Shown in pieces: positions 17,822 through 32,387 of a DNA stretch of 64,000 nucleotides. The stretch lies in contig CAJYKB010000074.1 of assembly GCA_913774925.1 (NCBI GenBank), forward strand, positions 1 through 64,000. Reading direction: 5' to 3'. Source of the stretch: an uncultured Sphingomonas sp. (GTDB taxonomy: Bacteria > Pseudomonadota > Alphaproteobacteria > Sphingomonadales > Sphingomonadaceae). A program made the translations under genes and the position numbers. The number at the start of each line of letters is the position of its first letter. The first letter of the stretch is position 1. The notes beneath the pieces are model-generated. The model ran no database searches. It worked only from the letters and a program-made list of their open reading frames with translations, and was not told the DNA's origin.

Positions 17822-17839
17822 TGGCGCCCAGAAGAGGAC
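17822..17839 (+). repeat. distal att core (duplicated tRNA-Leu 3' end)
   Basis: tggcgcccagaagaggac, 17/18 identical to 32301-32318. Confidence 0.85.
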
Positions 17840-19382: not shown

Positions 19383-19937
19383 TCACTCTGCGACCCCAAG
19401 GGCTCTGTAAACGCTCCCTCGACCGATCTTAAGGCGGCGCGCGATCTCGGCGGGACGAACGCCTTCGGCCTTCAGGCGCCGGACCTCTTCAACCGGGACC
19501 GAGGGCTTCCGGCCCTTGTAGACGCCGGCTCCTTTCGCCTTAGCGATGCCCTCCATCTGACGTTCGCGCCGGATGGCAGTCTCGAACTGTGCGAAGACCG
19601 CGAGCATCTGGAGGAACGCGACGCCGGCCGGTGTAGACGTGTCGATGGGCTGCTCGGTCGCGCGCAGGAACGCCCCACGTTCCTTCAGGGTGGCGACGAT
19701 CTTCTCCAGGTCCGCGACGGACCGAGCCAGCCGGTCGATGCGTGTGACCATGAGGGTGTCACCGGGGCGGATGAAGTCGAGCAAGGTTGCCAACTCCTGC
19801 CTTTCCTTGGTCGAGGTGCCACTCCTCTTCTCGCTGCGGACGATGTGACAGCCAGCCGCGCGGAGCGCTGACTCCTGGATCGAGCAGTCCTGATCTTCGG
19901 TGCTGACTCTCGCGTATCCGTAGGTCTGTGACGTCAT
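19383..19937 (-). CDS. serine recombinase (resolvase/invertase family)
   Basis: TYGYARVSTEDQDCSIQESAL...GDTLMVTRIDRLARSVADLEKIV...FAQFETAIRRERQMEGIAKAK with C-terminal HTH EIARRLKIGRGSVYRAL. Confidence 0.95.
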   Translation of the reverse strand: MTSQTYGYARVSTEDQDCSIQESALRAAGCHIVRSEKRSGTSTKERQELATLLDFIRPGDTLMVTRIDRLARSVADLEKIVATLKERGAFLRATEQPIDTSTPAGVAFLQMLAVFAQFETAIRRERQMEGIAKAKGAGVYKGRKPSVPVEEVRRLKAEGVRPAEIARRLKIGRGSVYRALGVAE

Positions 19938-19942
19938 GTTGG

Positions 19943-20063
19943 TGTCCCAATAGGATCTAGACCATGATCGGATAATTGTCCGAAATCGAAAGTCAACCCT
20001 ATTGGGACGCTGAGGTTGTCCCACCTGAACGTTCTGCTCGGGTATACCCGACTGGGACACCCA
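19943..20063. promoter_or_regulatory. res-like recombination/operator site for the serine recombinase
   Basis: Perfect 11-bp IR GTCCCAATAGG (19944-19954)/CCTATTGGGAC (19999-20009); palindrome CGGGTATACCCG (20039-20050); further TGTCCCA/TGGGACA halves at 20018 and 20053. Confidence 0.65.
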
Positions 20064-20099
20064 CTGGACAAGCTTGATGGAAGCGGTCCATCTCAGACC

Positions 20100-20591
20100 A
20101 TGCTTGAAGCGCCCATGGGCCCGTTTTCGGACCACGCAAACCTCGACGCCCTCGCCCACCGTTTCTTTCGGCAGTTCTCGCGCACCGAATATGCCCTCAA
20201 GGCTGTCGGTCTCATGACGCGGCCGACGGGGCGGGCCGAGGCTGACTGGAAAGCGTTTGGAGATGAGATAGATCAGGCATTTCTTGCTCTACGCGCCGAG
20301 CGGGACGATTTGAGAACGGCCTGCGATTACATGCTCAATAGGCCACCAAAGAAGCAAGTCGCACGGGACGGGCGGCTCGAGTGGAGCGATAGCAGTCCGC
20401 AAGCCACGACCGAAACCGCCCTGCTATTGCAATACGTGTGTCGTGTCCGAAACAACCTCTTCCATGGCGGCAAGTTCAACGGCCGTTGGTTCGATCCCGA
20501 GCGTAGCGAAGAGCTGATCAGTCACGCCCTCACCATACTCGGTTTCAGCATCCAACAATCGCCAAAGGTTTTGGAAGCCTTTACCCACTGA
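20100..20591 (+). CDS. HEPN-motif protein (uncharacterised)
   Basis: HRFFRQFSRTEYALKAVG...LLLQYVCRVRNNLFHGGKFNGRWFDPERSEELISHALTIL; Rx4H motif RNNLFH. An upstream TTG (20016) is an alternative start. Confidence 0.65.
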   Translation: MLEAPMGPFSDHANLDALAHRFFRQFSRTEYALKAVGLMTRPTGRAEADWKAFGDEIDQAFLALRAERDDLRTACDYMLNRPPKKQVARDGRLEWSDSSPQATTETALLLQYVCRVRNNLFHGGKFNGRWFDPERSEELISHALTILGFSIQQSPKVLEAFTH

Positions 20592-20742
20592 GGATGGGTA
20601 CGGGGGGCGGTGGCGACGGTCCATCTTCGCTATGGCGCTTCGGATTTTTGAGCCAGAACCATTCGACTACGAGCCCCGGTGACGCGCGTACGTCACCTGA
20701 GCGCTCACACTACTAAAAAGGGGAAATTGGCTCGCCCGGCGA

Positions 20743-23291
20743 TCACGCGAACATGTAGGTCGCCCCTCGCACGGTCTGGAGGTCGAGTTCCCCGACAGGG
20801 GGCAACGGCGGCAGGGCGCCAATCAGCTTGGTGTGCGGTTCCAACTGCTCCACCAACTCGGCCCTGAACCGCGCCAGCGGGTCGGCTTCGTACATAGCGA
20901 CGAACGTATCACGCAGGATTGCCGCGAGGCGGTCTGTGTCGGCAGCATGGGTGCCGAAGCTGTCGTGGATTACCGCGAGGTCGCAGATTCCTGCATCGTG
21001 CGCCGCCACGACCGTGAGCATGAGATGTGCGGCGTCGAGCGAATGAACGAAGTTGGGAGCGATCCCCGCCTGCGCCTGCCGACCGTCCGTTGTCGGAACG
21101 CGCTTCTCATCGATCCATTCGGCGAGTGTTCGGGCTCCCGCTTCCTCCGCGATCTGGAGTTGCAGCCGCTTGCCGCGAAACGTCGTCTCGATGCGCCCTG
21201 CCTTCGTGTTCGCATAGCGTTGCAGGACAGGCAGGCCAGCCGGTGTCGTCCACCACAGCGGTAGGTCGAGCGCGCTGATAGCCTTGGCTGCCGCTTTGAG
21301 CCACTCCATCGCGGCGCGAGCTGCGGGCACTGTATCACCGATCAGGCAATAGAGCCGCGTCGCGAGCCATGTCGCCGATTCGAAGTTGTCCGCGCCTCCG
21401 AGATGGGGTGGCTGGCCGTTGATGGCTGCGGCTTCGTCGAGGCGGGCCAGCTCGGCTCTGATCTGATCGCCCATGCCGCGCGCTGTGGCGGAATAGACGT
21501 AGGTCATGCAGGGCCGCTTCACGACCCCGCGCGTGATCTTGCCGTCTTTCCAAGGAGCCGCGCCGGGGTCTTGCGAGGCATCGACCATCGCCTGCGCTTT
21601 CGCCGCGACGAGTGCGTAGATGTCGCCTGGGCTGTCGCTGGGTGTCAGGTTTACGTGCGGAGCCGCCTGCGCGTCTCGAAGCAGCGCTGTGAGATGCTGG
21701 AGGCCGGAGTTCGACCCATCAATGGCTATTGGCAAGTGCGAGACGAATGCTTCGCCGTGCCGGAGATAGCCCGCCCATTCAAAGCATGCGGCGAGCGCCG
21801 CCCACGGCTTGTCTGCGGTCGTCCAGAAGCGGGCGCCGTCCAACGGATCGCTGGCGCTATCGAGGATGTGAGCCCGGTGCTGCTCGACCCAGGCGATACG
21901 CTCCTCGAAGCGGAGCTTGTCGATCCCGAACACATTGGCGACGTGGATCGCAAGCCAGCGCGCACCCGAGGGGCCCAGCGGCTTCCCACGAGCGAACTCG
22001 ATCAGGGAGCGGCCGATGTCGCCTGCTTGCGGGTGGGGGCCACCCTGCGGGATCGGATAAACGCGCCCCCGGAAGTCGAGATCGTGCGGGAAGTAGATGG
22101 CAGAGAAGTCGGCCAGCTTGCGTGCGACCCAGAGCTGTTGCGCCAGGGCCAGACGTTTGCCACGTCCGGCAGCGTTGCGTGCATGAACCTTGGCGGCATC
22201 CCGCTTCCAGCGCTCGACTGCCTCGGGATCGTCCTCCACCAGTGGGCGGGCCGGGATCGGCTCGGGCTCGCGCGGCGGAACGCCGGCCAGGGCGCCACCT
22301 TCGGTCGTGAGGCGTTCCAGGACCTCCAGCAGCGGCCGGTTCACGCGCCAGCCCGTCGTCTGGACTGCGTTCACCGCCCGATAGACGATGGCATATCGAC
22401 GCTGCTGAGTTCGTCGCCATAGGCACGGCTGTGCGAGCCTACTAGCCGCGTCCCGATGGGCGGCGTGAGGTATCCGCCGTCTGTCGGGGTCGTCCACGGG
22501 CAAGGCGGAACCACCATGGGTAGAGGGATCGGGTCCAACAGCTCGCAGCGCTCGTGCTGTGTTTCGAGCCAGTCGTGCATCGCCTCCGTGAGGCACAGCC
22601 TACGTTCGCGGCGGATCTGCTTGCCGACGTTGGTCTGGATCAGCTTCAGCTCGAACAGGCCGGTGGCCTCTATGGCGAGTTCGATCAGCTTGAGCCCGAC
22701 CGTCACCAATTCGTGCTGGGACCAGTTGAGCGCGACGCCCTCGGCGTCCTGGATCGCTTCGATGGCGCGCTGACGCTTCTGGCTAACCATTGCGCGCCCC
22801 GCGAGGCTCCGCTGGAGTCCCTCGGCACCCTCTGGGTTGAGCCGGGCGAACTCCTCGGCTCGCAGATGGTCGAGCACCGCATTTCCGACGGTCTTCGCCG
22901 CGCCCTGCGCGCGAACTTCGCGGGCGCCTGCTTGGATGGCGCAGCGCAGGGTAAGATAGGCCAGGGGCTCCGGCTCTGCTTGCGCCTGGTCGAGGAGGTC
23001 AAAGGCTGCGTGGCGCCGCCCTGCTCGCCCTGACTTCGCATCCACCAGGAAGGCGCGAATTGCGTCCGCTGTTGGCTTGAGCGTCCGTCGCAGCATCGCC
23101 CGCCCCGGTGGTAGCGATGCCTCGTCGCTACTGGGGCCGATGGCGTCGATCCAGGGCGCGTTGCGCTTGTTCCGGTAGCGCGCCTTCCCGAGCGCACGGG
23201 ATTCGGCTTCAAGGTCCTGCTGGACCTCAATGAGATCAACGTCGGTAATGGTAATGGTCCTGATGCTTTGGCCGTCCGTTGGGTCGATCAA
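20743..23291 (-). pseudogene. T7-like single-subunit DNA-directed RNA polymerase, interrupted by one frameshift at about 22390 (pseudogene, recoded, or sequencing error)
   Basis: N-terminal ORF 23291-22371 (TTG start overlapping the hsdR stop) and C-terminal ORF to 20743 together read as one T7-RNAP-type protein: AIDGSNSGLQHLTALLRD, TRGVVKRPCMTYVYS, GIAPNFVHSLDAAHLMLTVV, LAVIHDSFGTHAAD, C-terminal TYMFA. Confidence 0.93.
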
Positions 23292-26200
23292 CCGGCGGCG
23301 GTCTCCTCTTCGACAACGCCCTCGCCCTTCCGCAGTGCTTCGTAGAGCTGCCCAGGGCCGAGCAGGATGTCCTTCAGCCCCGCGCGCACCTTGTCCGAGC
23401 CGAGCGCCTGCTGGCTCATCTTCTGGTGCGCGTCGAGCGCGTCGATGATCGCGTTCAGCAGCTCATTGTCTAGCGTCGGCGAGGCAGCGAACTGCGCCTT
23501 GCTGTTGTTCATCGCCTGCATGGTGAGCTCGTCGGACTCCAGCAGCTTTCCCTTGATCACCTCGTTCACGTAGACGAGCTGATCGCCGTCCGTCAGCTCG
23601 CCATCGAACAGGTCGTTCACGCGCTGGATGATCTCGCGGAGGAGCGCCTTCTGCCTCTCCTGGATCGAACCGGAGCCGGCCTCGCCCACCGGCGGAATCT
23701 TCGGGGCCTCGCCGCCCATCAGCATCGGCTGCTTGTCCATCTTCTTCAGCGCGTGGTGCGTGAGCTGCAGCTGTGAGACGTCCACCGCCACGCGCTCCCG
23801 GCCGAAATCGAGCAGCCGCACGAGGTATTTGAAGAACAGGAAGCGCTTCTCGATGTCCGTGTTGCCGTAGTCGAACATCTGGCTGAGGAAGGTGTAGATC
23901 CGGATGAACGTCTGCGCGTCGGTCTTGAAGAGCGTGAGCGTGCCCATCTCGTCGCTTGCCGCCTGGGCAGCCTTCTCGTCATCAAGCGCGTCGGCGGCCT
24001 CCTTGGCGGCCTTGGCTGCGGCGAAGCGCTTCAGGAGCCGATCCGCGACCGGCCCGAGCGCCCCGGCAAGGTCCCCCTGGGTGGACTTCGGGTCCATCGC
24101 GACGGCCGCCACACGATCCACTTCGAAGCTGTCGTACCAGCCGCCAGAATCGAGCTTCGCGCGCATGTCGTAGACCAGGTTGGGATCGGTGACGCCTTCG
24201 AGCTCTGCCGTCTCATAGTAGGTCCGGAACGCGGCCAGTACCTCCTGGGAGCTGTTCACGAAATCGAGGATATAGGTCGTGTCCTTGCCCGGATGGGCGC
24301 GGTTGAGGCGCGACAGCGTCTGCACTGCCTGGACGCCCGCCAGGCGCCGGTCGACATACATGCCGCACAGCAGCGGCTGGTCGAACCCGGTCTGGAACTT
24401 GTTGGCCACAAGCAGCAGGTGATAGTCGGTCGCCTTGAAGGCGTCGCGGATGTCGCGGCCCTTCAGGTTCGGGTTGAGCTCCTTGCTCGCCTCGCTCAGC
24501 GGCTCCGGCGACGAATCCGGATCGTTCACCTCGCCCGAGAAGGCGACGAGCGTGCCCAGCGGATAGCCCTTGCCCTTGATGTAGCGGTCGATGGCGAGCT
24601 TCCACCGAACCGCTTCCTTGCGGCTCGCCAGCACCACCATGGCCTTGGCCTTGCCGTCGAGCAGCGGCTGCACGTTCTCGCGGAAGTGCTCGACGACGAT
24701 CTGGACCTTCTGCGCGATGTTGTAGGGGTGCAGGCTCACCCACTGCATGATCCCCTTCGTCGCCGCCGACCGCTCGACCTCAGTTTCCTCCAGTTCCTGG
24801 CCGCCATGCGCCAGCCGGAACGCCAGCTTGTAGGGCGTGTAGTTCTTCAGCACGTCGAGGATGAAGCCCTCCTCGATGGCCTGGCGCATCGAATAGACGT
24901 GGAACGGCTCCGGCAGGCCGCCCGGTTGCTTCACGCGCCCGAAGAGCTGGAGCGTCTTCGCCTTCGGGGTTGCCGTGAAGGCAACGTAGGTCACGCCGGT
25001 GTCGCTCGCCCGCGCCGCCATCTGGGCGGCCAGCAGGTCTTCGGTGTCGATCTCGCCGCCGTCCTGGAGCTCCGCAATCTCTTCGGGCGAGAGCACTTCC
25101 TTGAGCTTCGCCGCTGCCTCGCCCGTCTGCGAGCTGTGCGCCTCGTCCGCAATCACCGCGAAGCGTTTGCCGTCGGTCGCCGCGAGCTCCCGCACCGCCT
25201 GGAGGGCATAGGGGAAGGTCTGGATGGTGCAGACGATGATCTTCTTGCCGGCCTTCAGCGCGTCGGCCAGCTGCGCGCTCTTGCTGCCGCTCTCGCTCTT
25301 GATCGTCTCGACGACGCCCGTGGTGCGCTGGAAATCGAACAGCGCATCCTGCAGCTGTCCGTCGATCACCCGCCGGTCGGACACGACGATCACCGTCGAG
25401 AACAGCTTCTCGTCATTCGCGTCGTGGAGCTCGGAGAGGAAGTGCGCGGTCCAGGCGATGGAGTTGGTCTTGCCCGATCCCGCCGAGTGCTGGACGAGGT
25501 ACTTGGCGCCGACGCCCTCCTGGAGGATCGCGGCCTGGAGCTTCCGCGTCACGTCAAGCTGGTGATAGCGCGGGAAGATGATCGCGCGAATGGCCTTCTT
25601 TTCGTCGCGCTGGGTGACGAGGTAACGGCCCAGCAGCTCCAGCCAGCTGTCGCGCTGCCACACCTGCTCCCACAGGTACGACGTGGCGTGGCCGAAGGGC
25701 AGCGTGGGGTTGCCCTTGCCGCCATGATCGCCCTGGTTGAACGGCAGGAAGTGCGTGGCCGGCCCCGCCAGCTTGGTCGTCATCATCACTTCGCGGTTCG
25801 AAACGGCGAAGTGCACCAGCGCACCCGATGGGAAGCTCAGCAGCGGCTCGCGTTCGTGCCCTTTCTGCTGCGGCAGCCTGTCGTGCTTGTACTGGTCGAC
25901 CGCATCCTGCACCGATTGGGTGAAGTCGGTCTTCAGCTCCACGGTGGCGACAGGGAGGCCGTTGAGGAACAGCACCAGGTCGATGCAGTTCTCGTTGGCC
26001 AGGCTGTAGCGGACTTGCCGCACCACGCGGAGCCGGTTGGCGCTGTAGCGGGCGACGACGTCCGGGTTCATGCCTATCGCCGGCTTGAATTGGGCGAGCT
26101 GGATCGTGCCGCGCACACCGATGGTGTCGACGCCGTTGCGCAGCACGTCGAGCGTCCCACGGTCGTCCAGCGACTTGCGTACGCGGTCGAGCAGGAGCGC

Positions 26201-26404
26201 CTCCGCCGAGGCGCCATGCAGCTTGGTCAGGCTCTCCCAAGCCTTTGGCTGGGTCTCCTGTATCCAGGCAACCAGATCGGCCGGGAACAGCGCGCGCTTG
26301 CGGTCATAGGCCTGCGCATCGCCTGCCTCGTACAGCCAGCCCTTGGAGGCAAGGATGGTGCAGACCTCGCTTTCGAAGCTGATCTCCTCGTGCAGGCGGC
26401 TCAT
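23288..26404 (-). CDS. hsdR: type I restriction endonuclease subunit R
   Basis: IDLVLFLNGLPVATVELKTDF nuclease motif, QHSAGSGKTNSIAW Walker A, ADEAHSSQTG, VANKFQTGFDQPLL. Confidence 0.97.
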   Translation of the reverse strand: MSRLHEEISFESEVCTILASKGWLYEAGDAQAYDRKRALFPADLVAWIQETQPKAWESLTKLHGASAEALLLDRVRKSLDDRGTLDVLRNGVDTIGVRGTIQLAQFKPAIGMNPDVVARYSANRLRVVRQVRYSLANENCIDLVLFLNGLPVATVELKTDFTQSVQDAVDQYKHDRLPQQKGHEREPLLSFPSGALVHFAVSNREVMMTTKLAGPATHFLPFNQGDHGGKGNPTLPFGHATSYLWEQVWQRDSWLELLGRYLVTQRDEKKAIRAIIFPRYHQLDVTRKLQAAILQEGVGAKYLVQHSAGSGKTNSIAWTAHFLSELHDANDEKLFSTVIVVSDRRVIDGQLQDALFDFQRTTGVVETIKSESGSKSAQLADALKAGKKIIVCTIQTFPYALQAVRELAATDGKRFAVIADEAHSSQTGEAAAKLKEVLSPEEIAELQDGGEIDTEDLLAAQMAARASDTGVTYVAFTATPKAKTLQLFGRVKQPGGLPEPFHVYSMRQAIEEGFILDVLKNYTPYKLAFRLAHGGQELEETEVERSAATKGIMQWVSLHPYNIAQKVQIVVEHFRENVQPLLDGKAKAMVVLASRKEAVRWKLAIDRYIKGKGYPLGTLVAFSGEVNDPDSSPEPLSEASKELNPNLKGRDIRDAFKATDYHLLLVANKFQTGFDQPLLCGMYVDRRLAGVQAVQTLSRLNRAHPGKDTTYILDFVNSSQEVLAAFRTYYETAELEGVTDPNLVYDMRAKLDSGGWYDSFEVDRVAAVAMDPKSTQGDLAGALGPVADRLLKRFAAAKAAKEAADALDDEKAAQAASDEMGTLTLFKTDAQTFIRIYTFLSQMFDYGNTDIEKRFLFFKYLVRLLDFGRERVAVDVSQLQLTHHALKKMDKQPMLMGGEAPKIPPVGEAGSGSIQERQKALLREIIQRVNDLFDGELTDGDQLVYVNEVIKGKLLESDELTMQAMNNSKAQFAASPTLDNELLNAIIDALDAHQKMSQQALGSDKVRAGLKDILLGPGQLYEALRKGEGVVEEETAAG

Positions 26405-27345
26405 GCGCGCTTCCCTAGAAGGTCCTCAAACTCATCTTCGATCTTGGCGGCTTCCCATTCCTTGTAGGTCATCTCGCTCCCTTCGAGCCGCCACGATTGA
26501 GGGCCGCTCGCAGCGCGGCCGAAAACGACCGTTGCGGCGGCACTCGGGCTGCTGAAGGCATAGCTCTCGGTGAATACGCAGTGGCTGCCTTGTGGCGCGA
26601 GTACCCCCGAGCGAATCAGCTCGGAATAGAGGCCGGCGTAGTTGTGATGGGCAAGCCCGGCCCAGTCGCGCCGTGCTGTCGACCCTGCCTGAACGATGAA
26701 CTCGCCGTCGACAAGGACAGCGGTTGCCCGAATGGCGTGCTTCTGGTTTTCCAACACGAAGCGCTGTGACGACGCGTCTGCGGTAGCGACTTCCGCAGTC
26801 GGAGCCGTCTCCGTCTTTGCTTTCGCCGCGGTCGGGCGGGCGCGATGGATGAACATGTCGACCCGAACGGCTGGTAGCACGATGAAGAGGTTCTCCAGGA
26901 ATGCCTCCATCTTCGCCACGTCCGCCTCGCTGAGCGCCGCAAGGGTTGGGTTGGTGCCGTTGTCGAGCGGCACGCGACCGATGGCCCGCGCCTCGGCGAT
27001 CAGCCGGGCCTCCAAGTAGCGGACATGGGCCTTGTTGAGCTTGTTGGCGGCTGCCGTGATCAGGACGGCGCTCGTCCACCATTCCTTGCGAACGTCGTGG
27101 CTGCGGATGCGGGCGGAAATGTCTTCGCCTTCGCCGACATAGGCGCGGGGTTCGCCCTCCTGCTCGCCGATTAGCAGGTAGACGCCGGCATAGCTCGCCT
27201 CCGGCCGTGCCAGCGCTTCCGCGATTTGAGTGCGCGGCGCCATCAGAACGTGGCCGGTCCAGTTGAACAGCTCGGCCGTGAGCATGCCGTCGGGCCGGCC
27301 ATCGATGTAGTGGAGCTCCAGAGAGCGACCGATGGCGCGTGTCAT
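26401..27345 (-). CDS. GIY-YIG nuclease family protein (DUF4357-type C-terminus likely)
   Basis: GVYLLIGEQEGEPRAYVGEGEDISARIRSHDVRKEWWTSAVLI...KAHVRYLEARLIAEA; ATGA overlaps both neighbours. Confidence 0.85.
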   Translation of the reverse strand: MTRAIGRSLELHYIDGRPDGMLTAELFNWTGHVLMAPRTQIAEALARPEASYAGVYLLIGEQEGEPRAYVGEGEDISARIRSHDVRKEWWTSAVLITAAANKLNKAHVRYLEARLIAEARAIGRVPLDNGTNPTLAALSEADVAKMEAFLENLFIVLPAVRVDMFIHRARPTAAKAKTETAPTAEVATADASSQRFVLENQKHAIRATAVLVDGEFIVQAGSTARRDWAGLAHHNYAGLYSELIRSGVLAPQGSHCVFTESYAFSSPSAAATVVFGRAASGPQSWRLEGSEMTYKEWEAAKIEDEFEDLLGKRA

Positions 27346-28667
27346 GCCGCCTCCGCCTTGATGGCCTCAACATCGCGCACGTCGATTTGCCCAGTGACGG
27401 CTGCCGAGATGACGCACGCGCGCCGCTCAAGAAGGAGCGCGACATTTTCATCGATGGCTTCCAAAAGGAGTTGGATGGCGCTGCAGGCTCGCGAAAGGTT
27501 CGGCAGTATTAGCCTCTGCTCATCAACGGGAGGCAGCGCAACCACGAAACTTCCGATTTGCGAAGGACTAATATGTGGCACGCTGACACCCGTCATTTCG
27601 GGCACACAGTGATGATGGAATGCTTCCCCGGCTAGTAGGTGAGGGATATACTCGGGTATGATGGCTGAAGAAGGTCTAAGCGCGGCGACTCGTTGCAATA
27701 GAAGGCAAGGAAGGTCATCATGTGATACCTGCGCTACGCGAAGTCCGTCCCCAATCCACGGGCGATCCATGCCAAGCACAATATCGCCAGCTTGTAGTTC
27801 GTATTCGTCTAGACCGTCATTATCTTCGCGTTGCCAGTATACGACGTCATCCCACCGCATTCGCCCGACTGCGATGTTAACACCCCGCAACAACGGCGTT
27901 TGCTCGGGAGCGGTCTTGAAGCCAGCCGATGGAAATGCGTAACCGGACAGCACATTGATTTCGCGCTTTAGCGGGATCACTCGCCAATGCGCTGGCACCT
28001 CGCCTAGCCACTCCACGCCGGAGTCTTTCATGGACACCGCCGGGTCCAGCCCCTTGGTAACCACGTGGGAGATGACGGCCTGGCGCTTCTCCTTGAGCAG
28101 CTCGATGAGCCGTCGCTGCTCCTCCACCAGCGCATCGATATTGGCCGTCTCGCGGTCGAGGAAGGCGGCGATGGCAGCCTGTTCCGAAACGGGCGGAACC
28201 GCCAGCACAATGTTCCGCATCTCCGAGAAGTTCGTACTCCAGAGATCCGCTACGATCCCCTTGCCAACACGATAGTACTCCTCCTGAAACGACACAGAGC
28301 GGAAGAGATGATGGGCGAAACGTCCGTCGATCTCGGAGCTGGGTTCTAGAACCGTGTTGATCAGAGAAGTGGAGCCGTCCAATTCGGATAGGCCAGATGA
28401 GCCCTTGCGGTCCGAGCGGCTATTGATAACGAAGTCTCCTGCCCTAACCAACTTGCGATTATCACCGTCATCGGTCTTGGCTGCCGTTTCGAGCTGAGGA
28501 AGAATGCCGTTTTTGGTCACAGACAGAGGCGGAAAGTCCTTGTCACTGACCTTAGTCCGACGCTCATCGAAGTAGTGAGCAAGACGTTTCAGGTACCAAT
28601 GTGATGGAACTTGACCCAGCCAAACGAGGCCGCTCTCTTGATAGCTCGGGTACGCCGGAAAGCTCAC
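27342..28667 (-). CDS. hsdS: type I restriction enzyme specificity subunit
   Basis: Two target-recognition halves with repeated conserved regions: [13 protein letters not shown] / [54 protein letters not shown] / [13 protein letters not shown]. Confidence 0.95.
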
Positions 28668-30499
28668 GCCGCTAGCCCCTCGATCATAGCCTTGATCCGG
28701 TCAGTTACCTGCTTCAGGTCGGCGTCGATCTCCTCCAGCGGCCGAGGTGCCTCGAACACGTAGAACTGGCGGCTGAACGGCACCTCGTAGCCGACCTTCG
28801 TCTTGCTCTCGTCGATCCACGCATCCGGCGCATGTGGCAGCACCTCGCGCTTGAAGTAAGCGTCGACGTCCTCGGCCAGCGGCACGTTCTCGGTATCGCG
28901 CAGGGCGCTGTCCGCCTGCGGCTTGCCCTTGTTCTTGCCGCGCTCGCCCAGGACGATCTTGCCTGCCGCGTCGCGCAGTGGGCGCTCGACGGTGATCGTG
29001 CGGTAGCCGAAGGCGCTGTTGGGGAAGATGCGGGAGAGCGGCACCAGCTTCACCTTGCCGCTCTGCGGTGCCTCCGGGGACTTCTCACCCGCCCACGCGA
29101 TCTCGCGCGCCACTTCCTTGCCTTCGGCATCGAGCACGATGGCAATCTCGGCGGCTTCCGCGCGGCCGAACAGCTCGGTGATCTGCCGGATATGCTCCTC
29201 GCCCAGCTCCTTGCGCTTGGAGCCGAGCGACTTGCGCATCTTGCGCCAGAAGCCCGAGCCATCGATCAGCTGCACCAGCCCCTTGCGGCCGGCCGGCTTC
29301 CGGTTCGAGACGATCCAGACATAGGTCGCGATGCCGGTGTTGAAGAACATGTCGGTCGGCAGCGCGATGATGGCTTCGACCAGGTCGTTCTCCAGCACGT
29401 AGCGCCGAATCTCGCTCTCGCCGCTGCCCGCGCCGCCGGTGAACAGCGGGGAGCCGTTGAGCACGATGCCGAACCGGCAGCCGCCCTCGGTCGCCGGGCG
29501 CATCTTCGCCAGCATGTGGAGCAGGAACAGCATCGAGCCGTCCGAGACGCGCGGCAGGCCGGGGCCGAAGCGCCCGTTGAAGCCCTGCTGCTCATGCTCG
29601 CGGCGGACTTCCTTCTCGACCTTCTTCCACTCGACGCCGAACGGCGGGTTGGCCAGCATATAGTCGAAGGTCTTGCCGGGGTGTCCGTCCTCCGACAGCG
29701 TGTTGCCGAAGGCGATGTTGGAGACGCTCTGCCCCTTGATGAGCATGTCCGCCTTGCAGATTGCGTAAGACTCCGGGTTGAGCTCCTGGCCCGAGATGGT
29801 CAGGCGGGCGCCGGGGTTGAGCTCCGCCAGACGCTCTTCGGCAACCGACAGCATGCCGCCGGTGCCTGCGGTGGGGTCGTAGATCGTCCGCACCACACCG
29901 GGCTTGGACAGCGCGGCGTCGTCCTCGACGAAGATCAGGTTGACCATCAGGTTGATCACCTCACGCGGCGTGAAGTGATCGCCTGCGGTTTCGTTCGAGG
30001 CCTCGGCGAACTTGCGGATCAGCTCCTCGAACACCAGGCCCATCTGGCTGTTCGGCACCTTGTCCGGGTGCAGGTCGATGCCGGCGAACTTCTCGGTGAC
30101 CAGGAACAGCAGCTTGGCGCGGGCGAGCTTGTCGATCTGGTTGTGGAACTCGAACTTCTCGAAGATGTCCCGCACCTCTTCCGAGAAGTCCTGGACGTAG
30201 GAGGTCAGGTTCGCGGCGATGTTGTCCGGGTCCCCCAGCAGCTTCTGGAGGTCCATCGGCGAGGTGTTGAAGAAGTTCGTCTCGGCCTTGCGGCGCAGGA
30301 AGGGCTCCGGGTTCAGGCCTGACTTCTCGCGCAGCTCCAGTTCAGCCAGCACGGCCGCCTTGGTCGGCTCCAGGACGCAGTCGAGGCGCCGCAGGACCGT
30401 GAAGGGCAGGATGACGGAGCCGTAGTCGGCCGGCTTGTAGTCGCCGCGCAGCAAGTCCGCGACCGACCAGATGAAAGCCGAGAGTGCCTGGTGGTTCAT
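28664..30499 (-). CDS. hsdM: type I restriction enzyme methyltransferase subunit
   Basis: [10 protein letters not shown] and NPPFGVEW (N6-adenine MTase motifs); [17 protein letters not shown]. Confidence 0.97.
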
Positions 30500-30559: not shown

Positions 30560-32266
30560 TTAGTCCTTGGCCGCATGGAGGTGCGACAGATCCAGGTCCG
30601 GGTAGGTGATCCTCTCCAGCGCCCTGGCGAAATCCTTCACCGTGAAGCCCTTGCCGTAGCTCTTCTCCGAGCCGCCGGATTCACGACCCAGAAGCGCTCG
30701 GCCCAGTGCGGTGCCGTATAGGTCTGCGGCGATCAGGCGATCCTCCACGCCGTGCCGGAAACTATGCATCCCCAGCTTCGTGCCGGTGAGGCCGAGGTCC
30801 TTCACAATCTTCACGAACCATTCGCCCAGCTTCGCGCCGGCTTGGCCCCGCACATTCGCCTTCGCGTCGGGGAACAGCAGTTCCTCCGGTTTGGCGACCT
30901 TGCAGCGATGCTTGAGAAAGGCGGCGAAGCCCATGCGCACCAGCTCGGGGTGCAGCGGCAAGTCGCGGCGGCTGTAGCTGGTCTTCAGGGAGCGGCCGGC
31001 ATGTGCACGAATACGGAGCGCGGTCAGGCCATCCACCTCCTCGACGTCCGCGATGCGCAGCCCGGCGATTTCGCCCAGCCGCGCGCCGGTGAATAGCGCG
31101 ACCAGTGGAATCCAGAAGCGCCCCGGCCGGGCCATGTCGGGCTTCGCGGGGGCGACCCAGGGATCGGAGGTGAACAGCGTCTGGAGCTGGGGTGCCGTGA
31201 ACGGATCGCGCTTGTCGATTTCCGCCACGCTATCCTTGACCGCCAGGCCGGTGAAGGGCGTGCTGGTGATCCAGCCTTCCTTCATCGCCCATTTGAAGAG
31301 CGCCGCGATATGCGCAAGGTAGGCGCGGTTGATCGTTGCCGGTTTAATGGGCTCGATCTTCAGGCGCTTGCCCGCCTCGATTGCCTGCGGCACCGACAAT
31401 CCCTTCAGGGCGGCATGGCGGCCCATCCCAGCCGGCAAGTCACGCAGCATGGCGACCACCCCGCGCGCATCCTCGCGGGTCACTGAGGAGGCGTCCCGAT
31501 CCCCGAGGATGTCCTTCAGGGCTCGGAAGGGCGCCTCGACGGCCTCACGGCTCGATGCGCTCCAATCCTTCCACTTGGCCTCTTTATATGCTTTGATCAG
31601 CGCATTGACGGAGTGGTCCGGCGCATCGGCCTTGATCTCCAGAGCGCGGGCCAGCCGGGGATCGGAAGGAGCTGCCCCCTCCATGCCCTGCAATTGCTGT
31701 GCGATGCCTCGATGCAGTTCGGTGAACGCGAGGTGCAGCATCGACTTCAGCGCGTCGCGGCTGGGGCTCTCCTCAGGGATCGGAAGGCCCTGCTGCGCGA
31801 TCAGAGTGTTCGCGGCGCTTTCGACAGCCCAATAGTCCTGCCGCGCCTGCGCAGCCTCCAGCGAGGCCACGCGGCCCTGCACCTCCGCCAGTGTGGCCTT
31901 GGCTTCCACTGGAGATAGCGCCCGGTTGATCCGGTAGGCCGGCAGCGCTGTGCGATAGAAGAGGGCGGTAAGGCGGGCGATTTCGGGTTCGGCCAAGTCG
32001 CGGAAGCGGCTGTCCGCCAATCGGTCCCGCGCCTGCTGCACGCGCGCCTCGTATTCGGAAGCGATCAGCACAAGCATGGCCTGTGCCTTCTTCCGGTCGG
32101 CTTCACCCGTCGACTTCGTGAATTCGCCTGGCAGGATCGCAGCCACATCGCTGGGCCAGCGCTTGCGGACCTGCCACAAGCTGGAGCCCTTACGACGACT
32201 CAATCGGAACATCTTCTCAAGCCTTTGCGTAGCACTATTGTGTAGCACTGGCCGCCTGGAAGACAT
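30560..32266 (-). CDS. tyrosine-type site-specific integrase
   Basis: ALFTGARLGEIAGLRIADVEE, MHSFRHGVEDRL, ESGGSEKSYGKGF (catalytic R, HxxR, Y). Start may be the internal ATG at 32212. Confidence 0.93.
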   Translation of the reverse strand: MSSRRPVLHNSATQRLEKMFRLSRRKGSSLWQVRKRWPSDVAAILPGEFTKSTGEADRKKAQAMLVLIASEYEARVQQARDRLADSRFRDLAEPEIARLTALFYRTALPAYRINRALSPVEAKATLAEVQGRVASLEAAQARQDYWAVESAANTLIAQQGLPIPEESPSRDALKSMLHLAFTELHRGIAQQLQGMEGAAPSDPRLARALEIKADAPDHSVNALIKAYKEAKWKDWSASSREAVEAPFRALKDILGDRDASSVTREDARGVVAMLRDLPAGMGRHAALKGLSVPQAIEAGKRLKIEPIKPATINRAYLAHIAALFKWAMKEGWITSTPFTGLAVKDSVAEIDKRDPFTAPQLQTLFTSDPWVAPAKPDMARPGRFWIPLVALFTGARLGEIAGLRIADVEEVDGLTALRIRAHAGRSLKTSYSRRDLPLHPELVRMGFAAFLKHRCKVAKPEELLFPDAKANVRGQAGAKLGEWFVKIVKDLGLTGTKLGMHSFRHGVEDRLIAADLYGTALGRALLGRESGGSEKSYGKGFTVKDFARALERITYPDLDLSHLHAAKD

Positions 32267-32300: not shown

Positions 32301-32387
32301 TGGTGCCCAGAAGAGGACTCGAACCTCCACGACCTTGCGATCGCCAGCACCTGAAGCTGGTGCGTCTACCAATTCCGCCATCTGGGC
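32301..32387 (-). tRNA. tRNA-Leu (anticodon CAG), CCA encoded; integration target
   Basis: Minus strand GCCCAGATGGCGGAATTGGTAGACGCACCAGCTTCAGGTGCTGGCGATCGCAAGGTCGTGGAGGTTCGAGTCCTCTTCTGGGCACCA; long variable arm; loop TTCAGGT. Confidence 0.95.

Follow-up and report, generated by a model that had tools for sequence, protein, structure and literature searches.

A phage-type, single-subunit RNA polymerase appears to be a lasting part of small mobile restriction islands in Sphingomonas and its relatives. The comparisons described below indicate that the polymerase has a conserved active core, that it is linked to type I restriction-modification (R-M) genes, that each of the five genomes scanned holds one predicted cognate promoter, and that this promoter and a block of DNA behind it are under constraint. 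Our best explanation, to which we give about an even chance, is that the domesticated polymerase and the promoter behind its stop codon form a cis-paired orthogonal unit serving a single island transcription unit. Single-subunit RNA polymerases in bacterial genomes are normally taken as prophage genes; in these islands, one seems to have remained active without any phage. No type I R-M system with such a polymerase was found in the open-access literature. The new polymerase-promoter pair is also a potential tool.

The island and its polymerase gene

The window, a stretch of 64,000 nucleotides from an uncultured Sphingomonas sp., contains an element of 14.5 kb. A 14-bp direct repeat marks its two ends, at 17826 and at 32305, and the second copy lies inside a tRNA-Leu gene (Table 1). 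Related copies are designated L002 (Sphingomonas phyllosphaerae FA2), L003 (uncultured Sphingomonas), L004 (Croceicoccus MAG), L005 (Novosphingobium BW1), L070 (G216) and L092 (G398). The integrase, the tRNA target and the flanking direct repeats of an integrative element are all present in the window, L002, L003 and L092. In the window, hsdM, hsdS and hsdR form one operon, as in a type I R-M system, with a DUF4357/PDC-S14 gene between hsdS and hsdR and the polymerase gene last. The order hsdM-hsdS-accessory gene-hsdR is the same as in the type I R-M islands with accessory genes known from PADLOC (PDC-S14, PDC-S02). What sets the present island apart is the polymerase gene, added at the end of the operon together with a promoter of its own. 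The polymerase is matched by no PADLOC model, and no known anti-phage defence system among the PADLOC models covers it.

Table 1. Features of the island in the window, with positions on the whole stretch
Feature	Position	Strand	Evidence or remark
tRNA-Leu, integration site, with one 14-bp repeat at 32305-32318	32301..32387	-	
Tyrosine integrase	30560..32266	-	phrog_1 integrase, E 1.7e-28
hsdM	28664..30499	-	PF02384, E 2e-56
hsdS	27342..28667	-	PF01420; PADLOC Specificity_I
Accessory gene	26401..27345	-	DUF4357 / PADLOC candidate PDC-S14
hsdR	23288..26404	-	HSDR_N, SWI2_SNF2, PADLOC REase_I
RNA polymerase, N-terminal part, frame 1	22371..23291	-	PF14700, E 1.4e-10; phrog_414, E 7e-40
RNA polymerase, C-terminal catalytic part, frame 2	20743..22401	-	PF00940, E 9e-111; phrog_414; T7 catalytic residues kept
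Predicted phage-type promoter AATTTCCCCTTTTTAGTAGT, predicted start ~20710	20709..20728	-	phage-only matrix rank 2; single genome copy
First 17 nt of predicted transcript, conserved	20694..20710	-	unchanged in window, L002, L003
Conserved 65-nt block without an ORF common to all copies	20602..20666	-	0-1 differences, against 12-17% at polymerase 4-fold sites
Antisense ORF, phrog_19013	20016..20591	+	E 5.5e-45
res-like repeats GTCCCANTNGGG, upstream of resolvase	19938..20061	-	sequence
Serine resolvase	19383..19937	-	PF00239, E 1e-38; ORF open from 20159, likely start 19937
Uncharacterised cargo ORF, 379 aa	18123..19262	-	
Second 14-bp repeat copy, far end of element	17826..17839	no strand	

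The sequence-only reading had described the last gene as a phage-type polymerase across nearly its whole length, and this was confirmed by the profile matches to PF14700 in the N-terminal part and to PF00940 in the C-terminal part. The alignment contains all of the hallmark residues (T7 D537, R627, K631, Y639, H811 and D812) and the C-terminal FA, which places the protein among the T7-type single-subunit RNA polymerases; its catalytic residues are the same as those of T3 and T7. Different from T3 and T7 is an insert of about 14 residues that follows the specificity loop, found only in the R-M polymerase clade among the sequences aligned. The islands also differ from these phages in having no phage genome and no phage DNA polymerase that we could find. 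The element had been said to hold no phage structural genes, and this held in a tblastn search with the genes of Caulobacter phage S2B: the polymerase was the sole match in the window and the R-M loci, and the linked capsid, tail, DNA polymerase and primase genes of an Autographiviridae phage or prophage were not detected.

In the window, the polymerase gene (minus strand, 23291-20743) is split between two frames by a one-base shift near 22,387; because the genome assembly is a draft, 81% complete, the shift may be genuine or arise from an assembly error. The homologues in L003, L004, L005, L070 and L092 are single open frames and thus intact copies. In the named isolate S. phyllosphaerae FA2, the copy is free of internal stops across the match but has no obvious start codon at the hsdR junction. 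As first described, the polymerase gene overlaps hsdR by 4 nt (23288-23291), and overlaps also occur at the remaining hsd junctions. The TTG start proposed with them is not conserved, however: L002 has no in-frame TTG at this junction, and in L070 and L004 an ATG follows the hsdR stop at a distance of about 50 nt. An AlphaFold model of the polymerase, built from six sequences, gave a mean pLDDT of 44 and was set aside.

The other genes of the islands vary. Unrelated candidate defence genes replace each other between hsdS and hsdR, with PDC-S14 in the window (26401-27345) and PDC-S02 in L003 (L003:4945-5988). The phrog_19013 antisense ORF, located between the conserved block and res, is present in the window copy only and absent from L002, L003, L005, L070 and L092. 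The cargo ORF of the window has no match in Pfam, PHROG, PADLOC or NCBIfam. In L003, a cargo gene adjoining the resolvase (L003:12697-13926) showed weak Lar restriction-alleviation and DUF4145 matches, and in L070 the genes downstream of the resolvase include a SieB-like (superinfection exclusion) one (L070:7009-7605).

Recurrence of the hsdR linkage and origin of the polymerase

A type I hsdR gene precedes the polymerase gene in six of the six copies with readable upstream DNA (window, L002, L003, L004, L070 and L092), with a 108-aa ORF between the two genes in L092. The upstream side of the seventh copy, L005, ends at the contig end in what we take to be the terminal part of an IS630-like transposase, and the linkage is not readable there. 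L092 has an R-M system of another type I family (HsdM 25% and HsdR 23% identical to those of the window), and despite this non-homologous R-M family its polymerase is the nearest relative of the group formed by the window, L002 and L003. The DNA of L002 and L092 is 98% identical from the res site to the att site and 72% identical in the polymerase gene, which suggests that modules have been exchanged at res. The integration site is tRNA-Leu in the window and L003 and tRNA-Gln in L002 and L092, and L070 lies beside tRNA-Tyr. Taken together, the different R-M family of L092, the exchange at res and the differing tRNA sites indicate that the association of the polymerase with type I R-M persists through changes of R-M family, integrase, tRNA site and cargo. 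This raises the question of what a mobile defence island gains from transcription that does not depend on the host RNA polymerase.

The linkage is not reciprocal, since four R-M operons have no polymerase gene (G113, the closest, with HsdR 94% identical, and G241, G324 and G211). Conversely, no hsd match was obtained in 27 loci with polymerases outside the R-M clade. The seven known copies of the R-M clade fall into four sequence groups, all from Sphingomonadaceae or Erythrobacteraceae. No further member was found in IMG/VR, nor, besides that of the window itself, in a sample of 385 genomes of the class.

In the maximum-likelihood tree, the seven R-M polymerases formed one clade (100/100), and a group of 13 rows (100/99) joined them with phage S2B, Mycobacterium phage jiawei, a viral contig, the S2B-like prophages G026 and G609 and the prophage remnant G347. 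The tree places the R-M clade as sister to integrase-bearing, S2B-like viruses. The nearest relatives, S2B and jiawei (Autographiviridae with an integrase), are about 50% identical over the C-terminal part; these are complete viruses, for which the stretch read contains about three promoters, whereas the islands keep the polymerase and one promoter next to type I R-M. The dN/dS ratio was about 0.09-0.2 wherever it was computable, many distant pairs giving no estimate, and these values indicate strong purifying selection on the polymerase. The proposal of the sequence-only reading that a phage polymerase had been recruited into an R-M island is thus well supported, as the polymerase does not group inside the phage clade sampled and is found with hsdR again in other genomes. 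The outcome named there as refuting it, a place inside a recent phage clade with no recurrent hsdR linkage, was tested and did not occur.

Within the R-M clade, the polymerases of L004 and L005 are 98% identical in the C-terminal part and 87% in the N-terminal part, a mosaic pattern suggestive of recombination within the gene. In the remnant G347 (L074:8835-11411), the polymerase and the C-terminal part of an integrase form one in-frame fusion.

The predicted promoter and the stretch behind it

A motif search over whole S2B stretches returned only GC-rich repeats, and the promoter emerged when the search was limited to intergenic DNA. Phage S2B has three near-identical intergenic sites, AATTACCCCATGYCCTAGGRG, one ahead of the polymerase gene, one immediately after it and one ahead of the connector gene. 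All R-M polymerase genes have a site of this class, in the same register, 12-15 nt after the stop codon, in the place of the S2B copy directly behind its polymerase gene. The site reads AATTACCCCTTCATATA followed by GAACC in L004 and L005, AATTACCCCTTCTTATA followed by GAGCC in L070, CATTTGCCCCTTCTCTATA followed by GAG in L092, and (C/A)ATTTCCCCTTTTTAGTA followed by GTG in L002, L003 and the window; in L092 and in the last three there is one extra base between CCCC and the start. Scored with a matrix derived solely from nine phage or prophage sites, this site ranked first in L004, L005, L070 and L092 and 4th-5th in L002/L003; in the window it came second among 128 thousand positions. The chance of such a score within 20 offsets was 4e-5 to 2e-3 per locus. 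The R-M operons without a polymerase showed no strong site (best score 8.0 in 1200 nt; true sites range from 7.9, the weakest, to 20.8, the strongest). Each of five whole genomes contained exactly one copy when matches to the pattern with up to 3 mismatches were counted, a search from which diverged promoters would escape; G398 is not among these five genomes, each of which was scanned with a matching pattern.

The upstream half of the promoter, AATTACCCC, is also that of S2B, but its core (-8 to -1) has diverged from those of the S2B-like phage promoters seen. In the R-M clade the position of T7 N748, which a residue-base rule links to the promoter sequence, is occupied by E or D; it is thus acidic as in T3, whose promoter likewise carries CC at -11/-10. 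The geometry is also like that of T3 and T7, in which the phi1.05 / phi1.1A promoter lies 12-26 nt behind the polymerase stop. The island promoter sits directly behind the polymerase gene and, as long as the element is integrated, points away from hsd. Of the three roles that the sequence-only reading had proposed, a driver of element genes is therefore the nearest to the evidence; the role of sensor or decoy fared less well, as discussed below.

Behind the promoter no ORF is common to all copies, and the res/resolvase region follows. A comparison of L002 with L003 shows no change in the promoter, in the initial 17 nt of the predicted transcript or in the 65-nt block, while the 4-fold sites of the polymerase gene differ by 16.7% (P 5.7e-6 for the block). 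This difference indicates that the promoter and the block are under selective constraint. The stretch varies in length, and the block lies about 45 nt from the predicted start in the window and about 300-400 nt in others; its similarity between the two halves of the clade is weak. The stretches of L070 and L005 are 68.5% identical over 143 nt, with a set of hairpins in which 11 pairs are changed on both sides, a set resting on two independent sequences, and folding was better than that of shuffled sequences for L070 only. No Rfam covariance model of a known RNA family matched the stretch behind the promoter, and neither phage homologues of the L070 stretch nor plasmid homologues of the L005 stretch were found. 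A conserved short peptide found no general support: a 10-codon ATG...TAG frame is found in the block in the window, L002, L003 and L092, and is missing in L005 and L070.

Possible roles of the polymerase and its promoter

In the proposed cis-paired unit, the polymerase would be expressed weakly, as the final cistron of the hsd operon, would initiate at its private promoter and would transcribe the conserved stretch behind it, with transcription probably continuing into the res/resolvase region. The RNA of the unit, or the act of making it, would then serve the island. The simplest form would be a noncoding RNA made independently of the host RNA polymerase. We propose only tentatively that the pair makes such a dedicated RNA for defence or island maintenance and that this is a new, R-M-linked system.

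Several other readings were weighed. The promoter may instead drive the life cycle of the element, which we consider rather unlikely. In the excised circle it would read the resolvase, the cargo, attP, int and hsdM-S-R-RNAP as a self-amplifying loop, so that strong island expression would occur only in the circle, for example in a new cell, and the integrated transcript would run into the chromosome. In agreement with this, all genes of the window element except one antisense ORF are on one strand, and the att repeats lie at tRNA genes, such that joining the ends would bring the promoter to hsdM in each element. Temperate T7-like phages and prophages such as LUZ100 and Pasto carry a polymerase and an integrase, as the island does, but they are whole viruses, and the island is without every S2B gene tested except the polymerase. 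The LUZ100 polymerase is under its own promoter (PMC10134795), and this phage has been proposed to use polymerase self-amplification (PMC10134795). However, the integrase of L002 and L092 and the cargo gene of L003 face the opposite way, and this reading alone does not require a conserved stretch behind the promoter. In another reading, the polymerase, promoter and conserved stretch would prime replication of the excised element as in the T7/T3 primary origin, with res and the resolvase resolving multimers. The T3 geometry, in which the promoter is 12 nt behind the polymerase stop and the annotated replication origin adjoins it, is consistent with this, as is the presence of the resolvase and res-like repeats beside the unit in all copies with readable DNA. 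We nevertheless regard it as unlikely, because the region is about 60% GC and not AT-rich, the S2B DNA polymerase had no match in the element, and no rep gene was recognised.

A sensor or decoy against S2B-like phages, in which the polymerase or its promoter engages phage DNA or the phage polymerase, would suit an R-M island with candidate defence genes in a family that has S2B-like prophages, and the shared upstream half of the promoter is compatible with it. We consider this improbable, since the promoter core has diverged from the phage promoters, no recognisable defence gene lies directly under it, and it adjoins its own polymerase; the diverged core likewise disfavours the promoter as bait for a phage polymerase. 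The least probable reading by far is the chance insertion of a phage fragment that is now decaying. The frameshift of the window copy and the four related R-M operons without a polymerase could be taken in its favour, but a chance remnant is rejected by the single clade, the recurrent linkage, the strong purifying selection and the conserved, matching promoter.

Outside the R-M clade, a Planctomycetota MAG (L006:9194-13001) encodes a single-subunit RNA polymerase with 38-39% identity near a large serine recombinase and a DUF488 gene, directly followed by a Schlafen AlbA_2 / HATPase_c_4 protein. This locus is perhaps a second, unrelated capture.
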